Assembly (NCBI RefSeq): GCF_003287455.1
Contig: NZ_PRLC01000014.1
Span: 1 to 64,000 of the forward strand
DNA: 64,000 nucleotides
Reading direction: 5' to 3'
Source of the DNA: Faecalibacterium hattorii
GTDB lineage: Bacteria > Bacillota > Clostridia > Oscillospirales > Ruminococcaceae
In this document: piece after piece, positions 8,607 through 21,981 of the stretch
How the letters are laid out: each line of letters starts with the position of its first letter
Position numbering within the stretch: the first letter of the stretch is position 1
Position numbers and translations under genes: made by a program
Notes under the pieces: model-generated
The model's input: only the letters and a program-made list of their open reading frames with translations
What the model was told of the DNA's origin: nothing
Databases searched by the model: none

Positions 8607-11600
8607 TCACTCGCCCCTCCTTTCCTGTCTGCGTTTTCTGCGGTATCCACCCACCAGCGCGGCACCCATCAGCACCGCACCGGCGGTGGTGTACGGGGCC
8701 GTACCGGTGGAACCGGTCGCCGGGAGTTCGTAGCCGGGGGCATTCTTGCGGTTGATCACGGTGATGGTGGCACCGGGCACTGCCGGGTTTTCAACATCGC
8801 TGGAGTAGCTCACCGTGTAACCACCCACAGTGTCCTCGACAACGTAATACTGGGCATTGGGGTCAAGGTCGGTGAAGGTATACTTCCAGTTGCCCTCGGC
8901 ATCCGGTTTTACCTTCCCACGGGTCTTTTCCTGATTTGTACCCTTTTCATAAAGGATCAGCGTAATCTCAGCCGGCAGATTCTCCGTCAGCGAGCTACCA
9001 TCCGAATCCTGCCACTTCTTCACGACATCCAGCGTCGTTTCGGTGCGCTTCTTCGTGTTGGTGACCGTCACAGTAGAACCGGTGGGTGCGCTCGTGTGGC
9101 TGTACGTCACCTTAAAGCCCGCAACCGGCGGTTCCTCAACGACGTAATACTGTGCGTCTTCCTCCAAACCGGTGAATTGGCCCTTCCAGTTGTTGCCAGC
9201 GTTCAGTTCTAAGGTTTTACCCTCGACCTTCTCGCCAACACCAGAATCGTTCACCTTATAAAGCTGAACCGTGATGCTCTCCGGCAGTTCTATGCCTTTC
9301 AGCGCAGTCTTCCCGTCCACATCCAGCCACTTCTTTTCGACCTTCAGCCAGCCGGACTTTTGCATATTCTTGATGACCACGGTATCGCCGCTGGTAAAGC
9401 CGGTATGCTGTTCGTTGCCATACTGGTCAGTATAGGAAACATTGTAGTTATCCGGTTTGTTTGTCTCTTCCACGGCGTAGGTGTAGCCGTCTTTCAAGGG
9501 TTCATCGGGGTCAACCGTCTTCGAGGTATCCGGGTAGGTATACGTCCAGTTGTTACCCGACGAGAGGGTGATGTCGGCCGACCAACCCTCGTCTTTTTGG
9601 CCATTCGCACCGTAACGGGTCAGCTTAACCGTAATGGGCTCATGGTCGACATTTTTCTCCTCCCTACCGTTTGCATCCTGCCACACCTTGCGGATGGTGA
9701 TCTGCTTGGCAGTATTTTCAACGTTCATCTGTTCCGTCTGGTTGGCTGCAACGAAGGTGATCTGCGATTCTGCAACGCCGGAACCCTGCATAGCCGTAGT
9801 GATTGCTGCGTCACCCTTCGTCTGGTTTGCCGCCAGCATCAGGAAATAGTGGGGGGTGCTGTCGCCGATGTAGCCGCTGGGGGGCGTAGTCTCTTCGAGC
9901 TTGTAGAGTACGCCTCGGTCGACATTTACAACATTTTCTTTCACCTGATCCGTGTACCGGAACAGAATCTGGCCGTCTGTATCTGTCGTGTAGTTACCAT
10001 CGGCCTCACTCCACTTGCTGCCGTCCCAATGGGTCAGTGTGAACGTTGCACCCGGCAAGGTGTTATTGTACTTGTTCCGTTCCACCTTGAGCAATTGCAG
10101 GGTGTTGGTATTGGTCTGCGAAGCGGTGCCGCCGCCTCGTACATAATTATAGTAGTAATTGTTGTTGGTTTCACCGTGCCCGAACATATCCACCTTGTTG
10201 CTGATATGGAACTGCTGGTCTCCCAGACTGCTATCGCCTACGAGGAAGCGGTACTCATACGTCAGCTTATAGTAGCAGCCATCCGGGACGGCAAACGTCA
10301 TCTTATAGACTTTGTTCGTTCCATCGGTCTGCATCGGCTCAAGGGTAAAGCGCCGCAGGTCGGTTGCTTTCACATCCGTCAACACCCCATTGACATATTT
10401 CTCCAGCTTGACGCTCTGCCGGTTGATCTCGGCATCGATCTTGGCGGGGATCGTCAGGGTATCGTGCAGCTCCAGCTCACCGCCCAGCGTGGACAGCCAC
10501 TGCTTGCCGTCTTTGTTGATCTCAACGGTATAGGTTGCGGCCTTCTTATTATTATTGCTTTCTTGGACAGTCTTCGACAAGCCGAAATTCGTGCGTTGTA
10601 CCGTAACATCGGCTTGCGCATCCTTACTGCCCTTGTTCCATGTCGCAGTGTTTGGATAAGTATCTTGGGTAAAATTGATGTCGTCCCATCTGTCATCGTC
10701 CACTCGGACGCCGAAAATGATGGCAATATTGTACCCTTTCGGATTATTTTTCTGCGCCTCTGTTAGGTTTTTCAACGTAAAAGTCAGCTTCTGTTCCTGA
10801 TTCTTTTGATACGGAGTGTAGTTCAGCGTAAGATAGCCCTGACCTTGGCGGTTAGCATCGCCCATGTTGCTCTGACCACTCAACGGGAACAAATCCGATG
10901 TTTCATTCACGCCGCTTTTTGTATCCTTCGAGAATCCAACATAGTACGAACACTTCCAGCCCGTGTCATTGGACGCAACAAAGTTTTCATACTTGAGTCC
11001 CTTCGGCAAGGTGTCGGTCACCGTTACGGTGTCATCTGTTACATTTTTCAAAATCAGTTTGAACCAGATGATTTTTCCATACTCGACTGTTGCATTCTCC
11101 GAGAAACCGTGATCCGCATTATCGCAAGCATACTTTTTCAGTTCTGCCTTGCCCGCCGCCGGTTTGGTGTAGCTGGACGTTGCCTCTTTGTGATCGCCTC
11201 CGTATGCGATCTGATTGGTCACCGTAAGCGTTTCGCCAGCGTTCAGCGAACTCACATCTTCCACATAGGAAGAATAAGATTCCGCATTCAACTGGGTAAT
11301 CACAAGGTCTTTATCCGTGGCGTTCGTCCAGTCAACCGTAATTTTGAAGGACGTCACTTCATCGGCATCCTCCGTTGCCACTTCTCCGTTAGCCTTGTAA
11401 TATGCAATGTTGATGTTTACGCCACTGAATTCCGATTTTGTAAGGTCGCTGTACGAAGCCTTGTTGGACTCTTCCCCTCTGACCCAGTAAAACTTAATGC
11501 TATTTTTCAGTTCCTGATCCAATGTGCCCTTGACGGCATAGTGCTTCAGAGTTGATGCTGTTTTACCATCAATGGTCGGTGTCAGGAATGTATCCGTTAC

Positions 11601-14501
11601 CGTGAACGAACTCTTCTTGCCCACCGATGCCTCCGTGCGGACTGCAATATTCCACTTTTTTTCCTGCATTTTACCGGTGGTGACCGTTTCCAGATTGCCG
11701 CTGGAGTTCTTCAGCAGGTTCCTCGTTCGCACCGCGTTTGACGCGGTGCCCTCGGCAGGGTATGTTTTCTCCCCTTTCTTTACATCCACCCCATTTTTAA
11801 CATCCGTGATTCCGCCCTTTCCATCCGGCATGGTGGTATAGTAAGTAAACTGATATTTTTTTCCCGTCGAACCTTCGGGGAATGTATAGGTAAAGCCTGT
11901 ATGCCCCTCATTTATCATACCATACTGCTTGTTGCCAGCAACTTCGAAGTCATGGAAGGTATTCGAATCCGTCGATTCTTTAATCTTAACCTTGTCTCCC
12001 GCACGGATGGTGATTCCGCTGGTTTTAAGGTCATCCTTAACTACATAGTCCTTCAAATCGCGGCCATTGGGGTTATTGATCGTAACCGTCCACGTGATTT
12101 TGCCATACATCTGATCATTTCCCACAATTGCACCGGTCTTCTCAACCGTAATGTCTTCCCTGCTGAGCGCTTTCTCTGCATCATCGGACGACTCATTCTC
12201 TCCCGACGTTGCCTTTGCGGTGTTTTTGACATTACCCCACGCATCATCAAATTTGCCTGAATGGCTGACTTCATAAAGATACGTCAACTCGTAATAATCG
12301 TCCTTGCCAAGCGCATCAAGGTCTTTGATTTCAAAAGTATCCTTACCCTCAGAATTTTTTGCAAACGTAATTCTCCCGTTCAAGCTTACGGAGTCCGTCC
12401 CATTTTTCGTCAGCGTGAAAGAGTTTTCATCATAGCTGCCGGTCAAATTATAAAGATTCGTGATCACATCATCGATCGTGACCGGCTGCCCGGCGGTGCC
12501 GTTCTTCGACGATACTTTGACCGTATACTTGAAGTAGGTCTTGCCGCCTTTCTCCACGACTTCCGCCGCAGCCGTTTTATCCGTTTTGATATCGCTATTC
12601 TTTTTCAGGATGAAGTGCGTATCGTCCGAGATCTTGATTTCTTCAGTGGTGCCGGTACCGCTTGCAACGATATAGCCACTGACAAAGATGTTCGCCTTGA
12701 AAGTCTTCGTATAATCAAAACCTTCCACACCATCGTCAAAGGTAATAACCGCCAGACCCTCTGTATTCACGTTCAGGCGGCCAATGACTTTGTTCGCGTC
12801 GTCTTCATCGTAAATATTTTCCGTTACCGGCTTGGCCAGCTTATAAGGAAGTTGATAGTAAGCCTTGTTGCCGTTCGTGGCATTCTTATGAAAGGTGCCC
12901 TCCGGCACCTTTGCCATATTCAAGACAAGGCAAACTTCCGTGCCCTCCTGAATCGTTAAACCATTAGGAACCTCTTCCCAGTTGTTTCCATCCGGCTTAT
13001 ATTGGAGCGTGAAGGTCAGGTTCAAATTTTTCTGAACTGTTGAATCATTCAAATTGACCGCTGGTGGATCAGTGTTAAAAATGTCACCTTCGCTCGCATC
13101 CACCGCCGCCGCATCCGTTTCCCCTGCCGGCTGCACTGCGATCTCATCGTCATGGCTGCCGTCGCGGTCGTCGGCCTCGCCCACGTAGTTGCCGTAAGCC
13201 TGATCCACGAGGATGGTGCTGGTGACATCGGTGAAGGGAACGGTCACTTCCGCGACAGCGCCCTCGACGGCACCAGAAATAACGGTCAGCGAATCGTCGC
13301 CTACCGTCTCCACGATGCCGATGGTCTCGTCGTCGGCAGTTCCGTTTTTATTATAGGTGACCACATCGCCGGGGATGGCTTCGTAAGCCGCATCTTCGCC
13401 CTCGGTGAGGTAGGCAAAGCCCATGGCATCCATATCGGCGCGCAGCGCCTCCAAGCCCAAGCGCTGCGGGATCTCCGTCTTAGGGATGCCCGCATAATGC
13501 TGGCAGAACGCGATGAACGCGACGTCCCAATCGGCGTAGGGGTTCCCGTAGAACGCACCGTAGCGGGTGTAATGGTGGACGTCGATGATGTCGCCCAGTG
13601 CCTCGTCGGTCTGGAAGTTCTTTTCGCTTTCCTTGTAGCCAAGCTGCTCCTTTGCCACGGCCAGCAGGGCCTCGTTCCAGTTATCGCTCAGGCCGACGCT
13701 GTATTTTTCCCAGTCGTCGTCGGTCTCCACGTCGGCGCTATAGTCCGCAAGGCACTCCAGCGTGTGCGTGTGTTCGGGGATGGTGCAGGTCAGCACCTTC
13801 TCATAGCACGCCTCGGTGTGGTGATGGAGCACCGGCTCGGAAACGGCCTCGCTGCTGCTGTCCTCCGCCACAGACGTGGCGGTGTTGGTATCTTCCAGCG
13901 CCGCAATGCCGTCCTCCGCTGCCGTACCGTCCGAGAGCACTTGGCCCTCTTCGTAACCGCAGATGAGTTTTTCCTCGGTCTCCGTCTCGGTGGTGAAGCA
14001 GTCGTCCGTGTGGGTGTGCTCCTCAAAGCCGCAGAGGAAGTCACCTGTATCGGGATCAACCGGGCAGGTATCATCGTGGGTATGTTCTTCTTGGCCGCAG
14101 GTCAGTTCCTTGTGCTCAACAAGCACGGTCTCGTAGCAGTCCGCCGTGTGGTGGTGCACCTCCGGTCCGATCTCTTCCGGCTCCGGGTCTTCCGGCTCGG
14201 CTTCCGGTTCTTCCGTGGTCGGCTCCGAGTCCACGGAAAAGGCGGAGTCCGGGTCTTCCGGCTGGCCTTCCTCGTAACCGCAGACCAGCTCCTCGGTATA
14301 GCATTCGTCGGTGTGGACGTGCTCCTCCATGCCGCAGCTATATTCGTTGTCGGTGGTCAGCGCCGTGCCCACCTGATGCAGCCGCCAGCTGACCGAGAGT
14401 GATGTCAGCATCGCAAGCACCAGCAGCATCGCCGTATAGCGCCGCGCTCTCACACGCTGCGCCCGCAGCTTCTGCATGATCTCATTGAACTGATTCCCCA
14501 T
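8607..14501 (-). CDS. Giant LPXTG adhesin or pilus tip protein with His/Cys repeats, CHAP-like domain and Cna B repeats
   Basis: This 1964-residue surface protein is the largest in the window. An N-terminal hydrophobic segment (about 24-44) is followed by four to six His/Cys-rich repeats with a core like CG-EEHTHTD-CY (about 55-260). Next comes a domain resembling the CHAP/NlpC fold (about 280-450), in which the usual catalytic Cys position reads WDVAF. A long array of adhesin-like beta domains follows. Near the C terminus are three tandem Cna B-type repeats, beginning KVWQDANG, KKWLDVDG and KKWQDSDG, and containing (Q)YYVVEE or similar. The end is LPATG, a helix and a basic tail. A second ATG four codon-phases from the SD (14501) gives better spacing than 14504. 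It is probably the pilus tip adhesin; its ligand is unknown. Confidence 0.88.
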   Translation of the reverse strand: MGNQFNEIMQKLRAQRVRARRYTAMLLVLAMLTSLSVSWRLHQVGTALTTDNEYSCGMEEHVHTDECYTEELVCGYEEGQPEDPDSAFSVDSEPTTEEPEAEPEDPEPEEIGPEVHHHTADCYETVLVEHKELTCGQEEHTHDDTCPVDPDTGDFLCGFEEHTHTDDCFTTETETEEKLICGYEEGQVLSDGTAAEDGIAALEDTNTATSVAEDSSSEAVSEPVLHHHTEACYEKVLTCTIPEHTHTLECLADYSADVETDDDWEKYSVGLSDNWNEALLAVAKEQLGYKESEKNFQTDEALGDIIDVHHYTRYGAFYGNPYADWDVAFIAFCQHYAGIPKTEIPQRLGLEALRADMDAMGFAYLTEGEDAAYEAIPGDVVTYNKNGTADDETIGIVETVGDDSLTVISGAVEGAVAEVTVPFTDVTSTILVDQAYGNYVGEADDRDGSHDDEIAVQPAGETDAAAVDASEGDIFNTDPPAVNLNDSTVQKNLNLTFTLQYKPDGNNWEEVPNGLTIQEGTEVCLVLNMAKVPEGTFHKNATNGNKAYYQLPYKLAKPVTENIYDEDDANKVIGRLNVNTEGLAVITFDDGVEGFDYTKTFKANIFVSGYIVASGTGTTEEIKISDDTHFILKKNSDIKTDKTAAAEVVEKGGKTYFKYTVKVSSKNGTAGQPVTIDDVITNLYNLTGSYDENSFTLTKNGTDSVSLNGRITFAKNSEGKDTFEIKDLDALGKDDYYELTYLYEVSHSGKFDDAWGNVKNTAKATSGENESSDDAEKALSREDITVEKTGAIVGNDQMYGKITWTVTINNPNGRDLKDYVVKDDLKTSGITIRAGDKVKIKESTDSNTFHDFEVAGNKQYGMINEGHTGFTYTFPEGSTGKKYQFTYYTTMPDGKGGITDVKNGVDVKKGEKTYPAEGTASNAVRTRNLLKNSSGNLETVTTGKMQEKKWNIAVRTEASVGKKSSFTVTDTFLTPTIDGKTASTLKHYAVKGTLDQELKNSIKFYWVRGEESNKASYSDLTKSEFSGVNINIAYYKANGEVATEDADEVTSFKITVDWTNATDKDLVITQLNAESYSSYVEDVSSLNAGETLTVTNQIAYGGDHKEATSSYTKPAAGKAELKKYACDNADHGFSENATVEYGKIIWFKLILKNVTDDTVTVTDTLPKGLKYENFVASNDTGWKCSYYVGFSKDTKSGVNETSDLFPLSGQSNMGDANRQGQGYLTLNYTPYQKNQEQKLTFTLKNLTEAQKNNPKGYNIAIIFGVRVDDDRWDDINFTQDTYPNTATWNKGSKDAQADVTVQRTNFGLSKTVQESNNNKKAATYTVEINKDGKQWLSTLGGELELHDTLTIPAKIDAEINRQSVKLEKYVNGVLTDVKATDLRRFTLEPMQTDGTNKVYKMTFAVPDGCYYKLTYEYRFLVGDSSLGDQQFHISNKVDMFGHGETNNNYYYNYVRGGGTASQTNTNTLQLLKVERNKYNNTLPGATFTLTHWDGSKWSEADGNYTTDTDGQILFRYTDQVKENVVNVDRGVLYKLEETTPPSGYIGDSTPHYFLMLAANQTKGDAAITTAMQGSGVAESQITFVAANQTEQMNVENTAKQITIRKVWQDANGREEKNVDHEPITVKLTRYGANGQKDEGWSADITLSSGNNWTYTYPDTSKTVDPDEPLKDGYTYAVEETNKPDNYNVSYTDQYGNEQHTGFTSGDTVVIKNMQKSGWLKVEKKWLDVDGKTALKGIELPESITVQLYKVNDSGVGEKVEGKTLELNAGNNWKGQFTGLEEDAQYYVVEEPPVAGFKVTYSHTSAPTGSTVTVTNTKKRTETTLDVVKKWQDSDGSSLTENLPAEITLILYEKGTNQEKTRGKVKPDAEGNWKYTFTDLDPNAQYYVVEDTVGGYTVSYSSDVENPAVPGATITVINRKNAPGYELPATGSTGTAPYTTAGAVLMGAALVGGYRRKRRQERRGE

Positions 14502-14513
14502 CATGGCACCTCC

Positions 14514-15104
14514 TTAGTGCACCCATGAAAGACGTGACAAGGGCCATACCCTCAAGAACACCTTGCCGACGATCTGGCTTTTGTCCACGCAGCCGATGAC
14601 GGTGCTTCGGCTGTCGATGGAAGTTGAACGATGGTCGCCCATCACGAAATAGCGATTTTCCGGCACCTGATACGGAAACTTGAGGTCGCACTCGCCCAGC
14701 GCGAGTTCATCGACGTAAGGTTCCTCCAGAGCCTCCCCGTTCACCGTAACAACGCCGCTCCGGTCGATGGAAATCACATCCCCCGGCCCGCCGATGATCC
14801 GCTTGAGCAGAAGTTTATTCTGCCAATAAAAACCGCACAGATCGCCGGTTTTCATATCATCGGTCTTGAGCAGCAGCAGGACATCCCCGCTCTGCAAGGT
14901 CGGGTTCATGCTGTCGCCCGACACCTGCAGCACCGGCAGGAGCATGGTCGCCAGCAGCACCGCCGCCGCAGCCACCACCACCAGCGCGTAGACCGTGCTT
15001 TTCAGCACCCGCACGTAGCGGTCCCGGTATTCCAGACGCTGCCGTTCCTTGTCCACTTCCTCCATGGAGGGGATCGTGGCCAGTTTCACGTGTCGTCCCT
15101 TCAT
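14514..15104 (-). CDS. lepB: Type I signal peptidase of the pilus operon
   Basis: This 196-residue membrane protease removes signal peptides from secreted proteins. A single N-terminal membrane helix (about 38-58) is followed by the catalytic Ser in VSGDSMNPTL and the catalytic Lys in LLLKRIIGGPGD. The C-terminal box E motif is YFVMGDHRSTSIDSR. In other Gram-positive pilus loci a dedicated SipA-like peptidase is often required for pilus assembly. Those proteins frequently lack catalytic residues, but this one keeps both. It overlaps the upstream coiled-coil gene by 4 bp (ATGA) and ends 12 bp before the adhesin, so it is co-translated with the pilus genes and probably serves their long signal peptides. 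Confidence 0.93.
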   Translation of the reverse strand: MKGRHVKLATIPSMEEVDKERQRLEYRDRYVRVLKSTVYALVVVAAAAVLLATMLLPVLQVSGDSMNPTLQSGDVLLLLKTDDMKTGDLCGFYWQNKLLLKRIIGGPGDVISIDRSGVVTVNGEALEEPYVDELALGECDLKFPYQVPENRYFVMGDHRSTSIDSRSTVIGCVDKSQIVGKVFLRVWPLSRLSWVH

Positions 15105-15403
15105 TCTGCGTCCGCACCTCCGTTATCCGCAGACTGCGGTGGTTCACTGGGCAGGGGCGGATTCATTGCCTTCACCGATTCCAGATACGCATCGGCAGCG
15201 GCCTGAGCCGCTTCGAACACCTGATGCAGCGCCAGCGACGCTTCCGCGATGGAACCGGCATGTTCCAGCCGCAGGGTGCGGTCGTCCAGCTGCTTCTGGA
15301 GCGCCGCGTTCTGCTGTTCCAGCTCTTCTTCGTGCTGCTTGAGCGCGTAGATGATCTCGATCAATTCGGTGCGGCTCATCCGCCGCAGTTCACGTTCCGC
15401 CAT
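15101..15403 (-). CDS. Small coiled-coil protein, first gene of the pilus operon
   Basis: This 100-residue protein has no recognised function. The first 70 residues are helical and Glu/Gln-rich, with heptad-like spacing around LKQHEEELEQQNAALQKQLD, which predicts a coiled coil. The tail is Pro/Asp-rich and probably disordered. It has no signal peptide or membrane segment, so it is cytoplasmic. It overlaps the signal peptidase gene by 4 bp and is the promoter-proximal gene of the pilus locus. That position suggests a role in regulating or chaperoning pilus expression, but this is only positional. Confidence 0.8.
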   Translation of the reverse strand: MAERELRRMSRTELIEIIYALKQHEEELEQQNAALQKQLDDRTLRLEHAGSIAEASLALHQVFEAAQAAADAYLESVKAMNPPLPSEPPQSADNGGADAE

Positions 15404-15485: not shown

Positions 15486-15553
15486 CCGGTTTCGTGAAAT
15501 ATATCATTGATTTCCGGCGTCTGAAAGCCCGATTTTCGCCGCTTTCGGCGCAA

Positions 15554-15586
15554 AAAAGCGCATCCGCTTTTTTGCGGATGCGCTTT
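15554..15586 (-). terminator. Terminator after the double-glycine peptide gene
   Basis: A long stem (AAAAGCGCATCCGC with its complement) has a six-base loop, and on the minus strand a run of six U follows. It ends the 15610 transcript and also insulates it from the pilus promoter. Confidence 0.85.
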
Positions 15587-15609
15587 TCAGCCATTTCAGG
15601 AAATTTCGT

Positions 15610-15852
15610 TTAGTTTTTGCCGGTCAGCTTGAAGTTGTTCAGAGCCTCAATGGTGGTGACGATGACCCTGACGTTGTTGACGATGGAGCTGCCAGCGGAG
15701 AAGACGCGGGCGACGTAGTTGAACAGGGCACCGACATTCATGAAGATCAGCCAGCCCTGCGTGTCGGTGATGGAGCCGCCGTTCAGGTAGACCATCTCGT
15801 TCTCGTCGATCGCAGCGTAAGCGGCGGGCAGTTTGATCTCATTGTTCATCAT
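15610..15852 (-). CDS. Small protein with a double-glycine leader, bacteriocin-like or secreted peptide precursor
   Basis: This 80-residue protein has an N-terminal 26-residue leader ending in a Gly-Gly pair. The leader fits the double-glycine consensus well: Leu at -4, Met at -7, Glu at -8 and Ile at -12 relative to the cleavage point. The remaining 54 residues are hydrophobic and amphipathic, with no Cys, and begin SITDTQGWLIFM. Such leaders are normally removed by a peptidase-containing ABC transporter during export, as in class II bacteriocins and signalling peptides. No such transporter or immunity gene is seen in this window. The gene is preceded by GAGG, has a strong terminator, and lies 57 bp behind the InlB-repeat gene, probably on the same transcript. 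The function is inferred from the leader only. Confidence 0.75.
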   Translation of the reverse strand: MMNNEIKLPAAYAAIDENEMVYLNGGSITDTQGWLIFMNVGALFNYVARVFSAGSSIVNNVRVIVTTIEALNNFKLTGKN

Positions 15853-15909
15853 AATAAGGAATCCTCGCTTTCAAAATTTTAAGATAACTTCAGGCAAAAG
15901 CTGACCGTT

Positions 15910-16439: not shown

Positions 16440-16468
16440 GTTATACGATAAACGGCCTGTTTTGTCAA
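16440..16468 (-). promoter_or_regulatory. Strong sigma-A promoter of the InlB-repeat and peptide genes
   Basis: A perfect TTGACA (16463-16468 on the minus strand) and TATAAC (16440-16445) are 17 bp apart, about 70 bp before the start codon at 16371. Confidence 0.85.
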
Positions 16469-20224: not shown

Positions 20225-21981
20225 TGGAAGCCCAGAGCTATACCGCCGAACAGCGGCGCGCAGCCAATCAGGTCTGGGCGGCAGCCGGAGCCTATGGATT
20301 TGAGCCGCTGTTCCTCGCGCACAACACCGACGGCACCATCGATTTTTACATGAACTGCATCGTGGGGCTGGTGCACAAATATTACGGCGACGACCTCGTC
20401 CGCAGCCTGTTCGACTGCTGGGACGGCGACATCCGCCAAAGCCAGCTGGACGACCTGACGTGGCTCTACCTCGAAAGCGCGGCCTACGCGCTGGAGCTGC
20501 CCCGCCGCCCGGTGCTGGCCGAGCTGCGCCGCGCCCACGCCGACTATTTTTTCGGCATCCAGTACAAGCTCTCCCGGCAGGAGTGGATGGCGAAAAACCA
20601 GCTCGTCTACACCATGCAGGCCCACCGCTGGCGCACCGTGCAGGGCCGCCGTCCGCCGGTGATGACGCCCTACGAAGCCGACCTTGCCAAAGCCCTTGCG
20701 CCGGACACACCGCCCGCACCCGCCGCGTTAAAGGATGCACTGCTGTCTGTTTTTGCAAAAGCAAGCCTCTTTGACGGCACCGTGCGGCAGAAACCCGCAC
20801 TCCACCTGCATCTGGAAGGGCTGCTGGCCTCCCTTGCCACCAAGACCCTGCCTACCCAGATGATCAAGACCGACCGCGTGACGGTGGAGCACTCCAACTC
20901 GGTGGATGCGGCCAGCACCGGCGGGCTGACCGTGGACAAGCGGCTGGCCCACATCACCCTGAAGCAGAACGCCGCCGAGGACCGCGCTTACATCGAAAGC
21001 TGCTTCGGGCGGTCGCTCTACCCGCCGGAGCGGCTGCGCAAGGCCGAGCAGGAGCTCTGCACCGGGAACCATCTGGGGTGCCGCCTCTGGTTTGCGGCGG
21101 GTGTGCCCAGCCCGGAACAAGCCCCCAACCCGGAGGCGAAGCACCTCGCCGAACAGGCCCAGCTTCAAGCCGACCGGAACCGCGCCTACTACGCCAAGAA
21201 CCGGGAGCTCCACCGCAGCGTCGTGCTGCGGCTGACCGAGCAGATCCGGAACTGCATCCTCGTCCACCAGCAGCCCAACGCGCGGGTGGCCCGCAGCGGC
21301 AATCTGGACCCGGAGCGGGTCTGGCGTGCGCCCCTGCTGGACGATGCCCGCGTCTTCCGCTGTGCCGAGGAAGAGAACCAGCCCTCCTTCACGGTGGACC
21401 TGCTGCTGGACGCTTCCGCTTCCCGGCTGCACTGTCAGGAGGTCATCGCGGCGCAGGGTTCCATCCTCGCCGAGAGCCTTGCCGCCTGCGGCATCCCGGT
21501 GCGGGTGAGCTGCTTTTCCAGTCTGCGCGGGTACACCGTGCTGCGGGTACTGAAGGGCTTCCAAGACAAAAACTTGCAGAACATCAATCAATATTTTGCT
21601 TCCGGCTGGAACCGCGACGGGCTGGCCCTGCGGGCGGCAGGCGACCTTGTGGACTTTGCCCCCGGCCCTGCGCCGCGCCATCTGCTCATTTTGCTGACGG
21701 ATGCTTCCCCCAACGACAGCCGCCGGGTGCCGCCCTCCTCCGAAAACCCGCTGGGCCACGATTACGGCGGGGCTTTCGGCGTGGACGATGCCGCCGCCGA
21801 GGTGCGTGATCTGCGCCGCAAGGGGCTGCGGGTCTCCGCCGTCTTCATGGGGGAGGACAGCTCCAGCCGCGACGCCGAACGCATCTACGGCAAAAACCTC
21901 GCCCGCATCCGCGGCATGGACCAACTGGCCCGCGCCGCCGGCCGGCTCATCCAGAACGAGATCCGGGAGCTGGGCGATTGA
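20224..21981 (+). CDS. VWA-domain protein, partner of the MoxR ATPase
   Basis: This 585-residue protein has a C-terminal von Willebrand A domain. The metal-binding MIDAS motif DxSxS is seen as DASAS at about residue 396, with a later acidic residue in LLTDASPND near 493. The first 380 residues are helical and charged and were not recognised. The layout resembles the NorD/CbbO type of large VWA partner proteins. The start codon shares a base with the MoxR stop (TGATG), so the two should be made in fixed ratio. It ends with a strong terminator, so the pair forms a two-gene operon. Confidence 0.85.
   Translation: MEAQSYTAEQRRAANQVWAAAGAYGFEPLFLAHNTDGTIDFYMNCIVGLVHKYYGDDLVRSLFDCWDGDIRQSQLDDLTWLYLESAAYALELPRRPVLAELRRAHADYFFGIQYKLSRQEWMAKNQLVYTMQAHRWRTVQGRRPPVMTPYEADLAKALAPDTPPAPAALKDALLSVFAKASLFDGTVRQKPALHLHLEGLLASLATKTLPTQMIKTDRVTVEHSNSVDAASTGGLTVDKRLAHITLKQNAAEDRAYIESCFGRSLYPPERLRKAEQELCTGNHLGCRLWFAAGVPSPEQAPNPEAKHLAEQAQLQADRNRAYYAKNRELHRSVVLRLTEQIRNCILVHQQPNARVARSGNLDPERVWRAPLLDDARVFRCAEEENQPSFTVDLLLDASASRLHCQEVIAAQGSILAESLAACGIPVRVSCFSSLRGYTVLRVLKGFQDKNLQNINQYFASGWNRDGLALRAAGDLVDFAPGPAPRHLLILLTDASPNDSRRVPPSSENPLGHDYGGAFGVDDAAAEVRDLRRKGLRVSAVFMGEDSSSRDAERIYGKNLARIRGMDQLARAAGRLIQNEIRELGD

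Follow-up and report, generated by a model that had tools for sequence, protein, structure and literature searches.

In pneumococci, one C39-peptidase ABC transporter (PCAT) serves several unlinked substrates, which are bacteriocins and pheromones. PMC7018657 and PMC7595303 concern double-glycine (GG) peptides exported by pneumococcal PCATs, a route that we propose here for a peptide of Faecalibacterium. The closest described system lies in the same genus: according to the available text of PMC12184118, MAM is found in the envelope after loss of its leader, exceeds all other envelope proteins of F. duncaniae in abundance, and is an anti-inflammatory effector. A PCAT is co-present with MAM, and the same text names its Gln8, Cys14, His92 and Asp136 and the signature GIE[TL][VI]K; the corresponding part of PMC8836110 places genes for HlyD and Ig-domain proteins close to the transporter gene. 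In the portions of both papers at hand, the exporter is discussed with MAM as its substrate. MAM-like proteins have been collected with the motif MMMPANx(8,11)VxGG (257 proteins in 50 genomes; PMC12184118, available text) and by PSI-BLAST from full MAM (108 sequences, in at least ten clans that broadly track strain phylogroups; PMC8836110, available text). In the accessible part of a bacteriocin survey, PMC4573289, Faecalibacterium appears solely among the references. Among the matches listed in literature searches on Faecalibacterium and on unlinked GG leaders, only the two MAM papers appeared relevant from title and abstract, subscription papers and bioRxiv lying mostly outside the scope of those searches.

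The window analysed here is a 64,000-nucleotide stretch of one contig (C6) of the 2.79 Mb, 54-contig genome of Faecalibacterium hattorii. It carries a small gene, P0001, whose product has the same type of leader as MAM, with GG at equal spacing from the Glu and the Pro-Ala, and which likewise belongs to a genus with one PCAT per genome. Unlike the MAM gene, P0001 lies on a different contig from the PCAT gene and has a partner, P0002, with a repeat of the kind found in Flg_new and InlB B-repeat surface proteins (PF09479, TIGR02543). The P0001 leader does not fit the published MAM motif, and its 54-residue core has no detectable similarity to that of MAM, which is about 113 residues long (cargo 23–135 in the available text of PMC12184118).

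We propose, with a probability of roughly 0.7, that P0001 would be an unlinked substrate of the single MAM-type PCAT of the genus, exported and probably associated with the envelope together with its partner. The direct basis of the proposal is the type of leader, sequence conservation, the presence of one PCAT only, its co-occurrence with such leaders, the linkage of the two genes, and a single leader type in front of cargo groups that share no detectable similarity. The leader chemistry and the exporter are known; the cargo repertoire and the two-gene module are new, in that we did not find them in print within the literature searched.

The P0001 gene and its leader

An earlier note, made from the DNA alone, had read the locus as an 80-residue ORF with a double-glycine leader, and this reading was confirmed. 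Gly-Gly are residues 25–26, preceded by Leu at -4, Met at -7, Glu at -8 and Ile at -12; GG at -2/-1, hydrophobic residues at -4, -7 and -12, and Glu at -8 are the features of a GG-substrate leader. The core was also described in that note as hydrophobic and 54 residues long. The length stands, while the hydrophobicity is only moderate, given a GRAVY of 0.46 and a net charge of +2. Its best 19-residue Kyte-Doolittle mean is 1.39, below the usual transmembrane threshold of about 1.6, and the structure model places a single helix in the core at low confidence (mean pLDDT 59.9).

P0001 had no match at E ≤ 1 in Pfam and NCBIfam, and hence none to bacteriocin family models. No meaningful match was seen among the sequences of solved structures (best E 0.5), there was none in PADLOC at E ≤ 0.1, and the best in PHROGs reached only E 0.055. 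As a check on circularity, a profile was built from 37 leaders with the P0001-type ones left out; it placed P0001 first among the 473 ORFs of the window (E 3e-5, next ORF E 51, at a chosen Z of 40000). By this rank, and by retention of the leader in the orthologues, the predicted leader is not a chance likeness.

Table 1. Features of the P0001 locus and its surroundings, in window coordinates.
Feature	Position	Strand	Basis
P0001, GG-leader precursor, 80 aa	15610..15852	-	ORF reading; orthologues in 13/31 genus genomes, own included
P0001 leader, residues 1–26, MAM-type, predicted cut after GG	15775..15852	-	Leader alignments and profile
P0001 predicted mature cargo, 54 residues, amphipathic, one helix predicted (low confidence)	15613..15774	-	Alignment, model, composition
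Ribosome-binding-site-like GAGG, 10 nt before P0001 ATG	15863..15866	-	Read from sequence
P0002, 153 aa: signal-peptide-like helix, Flg_new/InlB-type repeat (residues 32–102), C-terminal hydrophobic helix	15910..16371	-	Family models and low-confidence structure model
Sigma-70-type promoter, TTGACA-17-TATAAC	16440..16468	-	11/12 consensus bases
Intrinsic terminator hairpin with U-run, behind P0001 gene	~15553..15588	-	Folding versus shuffles
Coiled-coil-like protein, conserved neighbour, no family above cut-off	15101..15403	-	Family scans, relatives
Signal peptidase I, conserved neighbour	14514..15104	-	Family scans, relatives
Large Cna_B/SpaA LPXTG surface protein, conserved neighbour	8607..14504	-	Family scan, relatives

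One exporter and several candidate cargoes

The earlier note saw no exporter near P0001. That is correct within the window, but the genome-wide search that it suggested for a peptidase-domain ABC transporter gave a different picture: a C39 domain search found one PCAT gene, of the MAM type, on contig C49, so that the genome of the putative GG substrate also encodes a C39 ABC transporter. An exporter-less system was rejected because of this gene. The PCAT is 797 aa long with C39, ABC_membrane and ABC_tran domains, and carries Q8, C14, H92, D136 and the sequence GIETIK, which fits the published signature. It is followed by a 151-residue ORF starting MMMPANYSVIAENELSYVEGG, a MAM homologue, and farther on by a HlyD-family protein and a Big_2 protein. 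We take this to be the Faecalibacterium MAM locus, with which the papers agree. Against the Bacteriocin_IIc model (PF10439), the leader of its MAM homologue scores 21.6 bits, below the cut-off of 27.1. In a second genome (G003), the first 42 residues of MAM are identical to the peptide quoted in the available text of PMC12184118. A third (G030, L107:1075-2418) has two nearly identical MAM genes in tandem.

Searched alone against its own genome, P0001 recovered GG precursors on C43 and C36 (E 8e-5 to 0.26) and missed the MAM gene. Alignment of 16 leaders, eight of them P0001-type, gives a pattern near K[LM]PAxYAxIxxEEMxYLxGG in which P, E and GG are invariant in all 16 and A is present in at least 90%. 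The likeness between the leaders of P0001 and MAM therefore extends past the general GG features. With a profile of these leaders, eight matches at E ≤ 0.01 were obtained in the genome: P0001 on C6, two each on C36 and C43, and one each on C46, C49 (MAM) and C29, the last at E 0.004, yet with a clear leader. The pairs on C43 (L010:6999-8036) and C36 (L011:7512-8298) are in tandem and encode larger proteins with MAM-type GG leaders, the cores of which have no detectable similarity to that of P0001.

Leader matches are present in 27 of 31 Faecalibacterium genomes, at three to eight per genome and 172 in total, a sum over the table in which leaders were inspected individually at fetched loci only. 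C39 positions 2–96 (2–95 in G023) were matched in 26 of the 31 genomes, with one gene per genome, in frames of 776–846 residues except in G028. There the single PCAT gene is split over two frames (L133:263-2592), yet the genome has five leader matches; the split reflects a sequencing error or else a gene that is broken. In G020 the C39 match is weak and lies in a frame of just 293 residues, and no C39 match was found in G018, G019, G025 or G026. The genomes without leader matches are G018, G019, G020 and G026 (79, 93, 99 and 89% complete, respectively), and G025 (77% complete) has four leader matches with no PCAT found. Counting G020 as without and G028 as with a PCAT, the table of leader and PCAT co-occurrence in the 31 genomes is 26/0/1/4, with a Fisher p of 1.6e-4 that serves as a guide only, since the genomes are related and the counts are not phylogenetically independent. 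Of the 26 genomes with a PCAT, no more than 13 have a P0001 orthologue, and the exporter therefore does not depend on P0001.

In a sample of the family, leader matches (E ≤ 0.001) were found in six of 247 genomes and four of 126 genera, and all three matching genomes outside Faecalibacterium contain ORFs that resemble real GG leaders. These loci (L130, L131 and L132), from three genera, join MAM-like GG leaders to other cargoes; MAM itself has been described as genus-specific.

With leaders removed, the cargoes fall into seven groups (MAM, P0001 type, C46 type, C43a, C43b, C36 and C29), assigned by pattern: MAM by an MMMPAN start and C36, with 15 heterogeneous sequences, by leader pattern, C29 being a single sequence. 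Profile-profile comparison with hhalign over the 21 pairs of groups gave a top probability of 3.6%, for the P0001 type against C43a; the leader is thus the only common part detected. Homology of P0001 to MAM beyond the leader was rejected, hhalign of the two cores giving a probability of 0.5%. Most of the fetched Faecalibacterium GG cargoes are larger than the pneumococcal ones, and they form groups without detectable similarity.

The published MAM motif was satisfied by seven of 44 leaders from loci of seven genomes, and these seven are the MAM group, itself chosen by its MMMPAN start. The census was reduced from 46 to 44 by removing false matches of a loose pattern (window 21078-21809; G030 L107 2739-3479), two long ORFs in L041 and L053 having also been removed in an earlier pass; it covers fetched regions of the seven genomes only and misses some matches, such as G003:C1:1713442. 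The leader-sharing proteins found here may be partly among the MAM-like sets of PMC12184118 and PMC8836110.

The two-gene unit and alternative readings

P0002 lies upstream of P0001 with a gap of 57 nt. Its repeat scores above both curated cut-offs (PF09479, 42.1 bits, cut-off 27; TIGR02543, 22.5, cut-off 20.95), and the structure model, of low confidence (mean pLDDT 60.5), has a terminal helix with no cytoplasmic domain beyond it. It differs from known Flg_new and InlB proteins in having a single small repeat and a C-terminal hydrophobic helix, and in its position next to a GG-leader cargo gene. The earlier description of a strong promoter and a terminator around a two-gene unit with a small InlB-repeat membrane protein was borne out by the family match, by adjacency kept in relatives, and by both elements. 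The promoter pattern, upstream of P0002, is seen four times in the window against 0.00 expected, and the hairpin behind P0001 has a z of -6.67, none of 200 shuffles being equally stable. Neither element was listed by a simple promoter and terminator scan of the window. By eye, a hairpin with a T-run follows seven of the eight P0001 orthologues inspected and is absent in L041. The two genes are presumably co-transcribed.

P0001 orthologues (E ≤ 1.6e-15) were found in 13 of the 31 Faecalibacterium genomes, including its own. The earlier note would have abandoned the peptide reading had homologues lost the GG site or the Glu at -8, and the outcome is favourable to it, both being invariant in all 13 aligned sequences. 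Altogether 21 positions are invariant, 13 of them in the core (F37, G41, N45, A48, R49, F51, S52, S55, S56, I57, N59, N60 and I64). In all ten chosen codon pairs dN is lower than dS (0.09 and 0.40 for the nearest relative). For the leader alone, nonsynonymous changes per site are fewer than synonymous in nine of ten pairs, and both are zero in the other.

Co-conservation of the two genes, a check also put forward in the note, is seen at 11 of the 13 P0001 loci, where an InlB-repeat gene homologous to P0002 is directly upstream. There are 16 P0002 homologues (E ≤ 1e-6) in 13 of the 31 genomes, and 15 of them have a GG-leader gene directly downstream on the same strand. That gene is a P0001 orthologue in 11 cases and, in G017 (L053), a second copy that has diverged; in G000, G014 and G003 (three loci) it encodes a different cargo, of the C46 type. 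The sole unpaired homologue, in G026, has two stops in frame, and that genome is without leader matches. As the InlB-repeat gene is paired with both P0001-type and C46-type cargoes, InlB-repeat protein and predicted GG cargo are a module that exists in paralogous forms. At the C46 locus of the F. hattorii genome (L055:4411-5153), the frames of the second InlB-repeat protein and its GG-leader peptide overlap by 4 nt. G003 has a P0001 orthologue without a partner at that locus. G012, a 99% complete draft, has P0001 and no P0002 homologue at E ≤ 1e-6; the sole Flg_new match there is weak and lies in a frame of 578 residues.

P0001 could instead be a class II (unmodified) bacteriocin exported through the PCAT, with the InlB-repeat membrane protein providing immunity to the producer. 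According to the available text of PMC8836110, PCATs most commonly assist antimicrobial peptides; in addition, the two-gene unit includes a membrane protein, and the amphipathic core has a net charge of +1 to +3 in eight of the nine family members computed. The MAM homologue leader also matches the Bacteriocin_IIc model below threshold, as is expected of a GG leader. However, P0001 has no Pfam or NCBIfam match, the ninth core (L049) is charged -2, and the invariant core positions and low dN describe a conserved core, so that the earlier suggestion of a bacteriocin specifically was not supported. As for the partner as immunity protein, the linkage of the two genes stands, but the role is weakened because the peptide in G012 has no partner homologue and that in G003 has none at its locus; the same type of partner also precedes the dissimilar C46-type cargo. 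In G012 and G003, immunity may come from another gene or from one that has diverged strongly. A bacteriocin and immunity pair is thus possible, though we regard it as unlikely and as less supported than an envelope-associated PCAT substrate.

We consider it distinctly improbable that mature P0001, or a fragment of it, is a peptide signal (a quorum pheromone) with a histidine kinase or the InlB-repeat protein as its sensor. The partner does resemble a displayed extracellular domain, but a conserved core of 49–54 residues is long for a pheromone, a scan of four further neighbours in the window (surface protein, signal peptidase, coiled coil and symporter) showed no kinase or regulator, and the low-confidence partner model ends without a cytoplasmic domain. 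In favour of a signal, some PCATs export pheromones (PMC8836110, available text). A further alternative, that P0001 stays in the cytoplasm or membrane and has its leader as a relic or by coincidence, draws on export being something that we infer, and is very improbable in view of the leader being kept in all 13 orthologues, the constraint on its codons, and its detection by the leave-out profile.

Proposed export and gene neighbourhood

In the reading that we prefer, P0001 as a substrate of the MAM-type PCAT, the 26-residue leader would dock in the C39 peptidase domain and be cut after Gly-Gly, and the amphipathic, helical 54-residue peptide would be exported by the transporter. The mature peptide would then probably be at the cell envelope, like MAM, and likely be held by or act with P0002, whose InlB-repeat domain would be displayed on a single membrane helix. 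Binding of P0001 to P0002 would be the weakest step of the proposal. An envelope association would fit the location of MAM and the surface-gene neighbourhood, function being less certain than export; the core has no detectable similarity to that of MAM, and the location of MAM therefore cannot be transferred by homology.

Judged from sequence comparisons, the MAM exporter probably has several cargoes that have gone unrecognised, P0001 among them. A wider reading, the chances of which we regard as evenly balanced, is that Faecalibacterium has a surface-export pathway of its own, in which one PCAT and a shared cleavable leader would bring scattered, unrelated hydrophobic or amphipathic proteins, MAM being simply the best-known one, to the envelope, with P0001 and its InlB-repeat partner as a duplicated two-gene envelope module. 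If the PCAT does serve such a repertoire, knocking it out or intervening against it would alter many surface proteins, and other cargoes may have a part in the effects ascribed to MAM. The GG-leader set also names peptides of a leading gut commensal that may be secreted or lie at its surface, and that can be searched for in existing proteomic data.

Downstream of P0001, the genes for the coiled-coil protein and signal peptidase I follow in conserved order at 10 of the 13 P0001 loci, including that of the window. Nine of these ten also have a sequence that matches the Cna_B surface protein, mostly in the N-terminal region of that protein, the fetched stretch of G030 being without it. The coiled-coil gene (E ≤ 1e-5) occurs in 10 of the 31 genomes, nine of them with P0001, and G015 has only a weak local match. 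Ancestral gene order, without function, could be the cause of this conserved neighbourhood.

A plasmid origin of the locus was rejected, there being no plasmid match, as was a phage origin: no relative was found in a scan of viral contigs, and the one match in a phage collection, MT835974.1 (L129), is an UNVERIFIED faecal scaffold filed as bacteriophage. It is most likely Faecalibacterium chromosomal DNA, probably misfiled, because its gene order is that of Faecalibacterium chromosomes, signal peptidase and surface protein included. In a collection of named genomes, P0001 alone gave no match. The P0001-family alignment gave 14 loci there, all titled Faecalibacterium (seven orthologues and seven leader-only matches), in a search that may omit records of the genome itself. 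The LPXTG surface protein beside the signal peptidase I gene of the window has repeated His/Cys-rich, HTHTxxCY-like stretches near its N-terminus.
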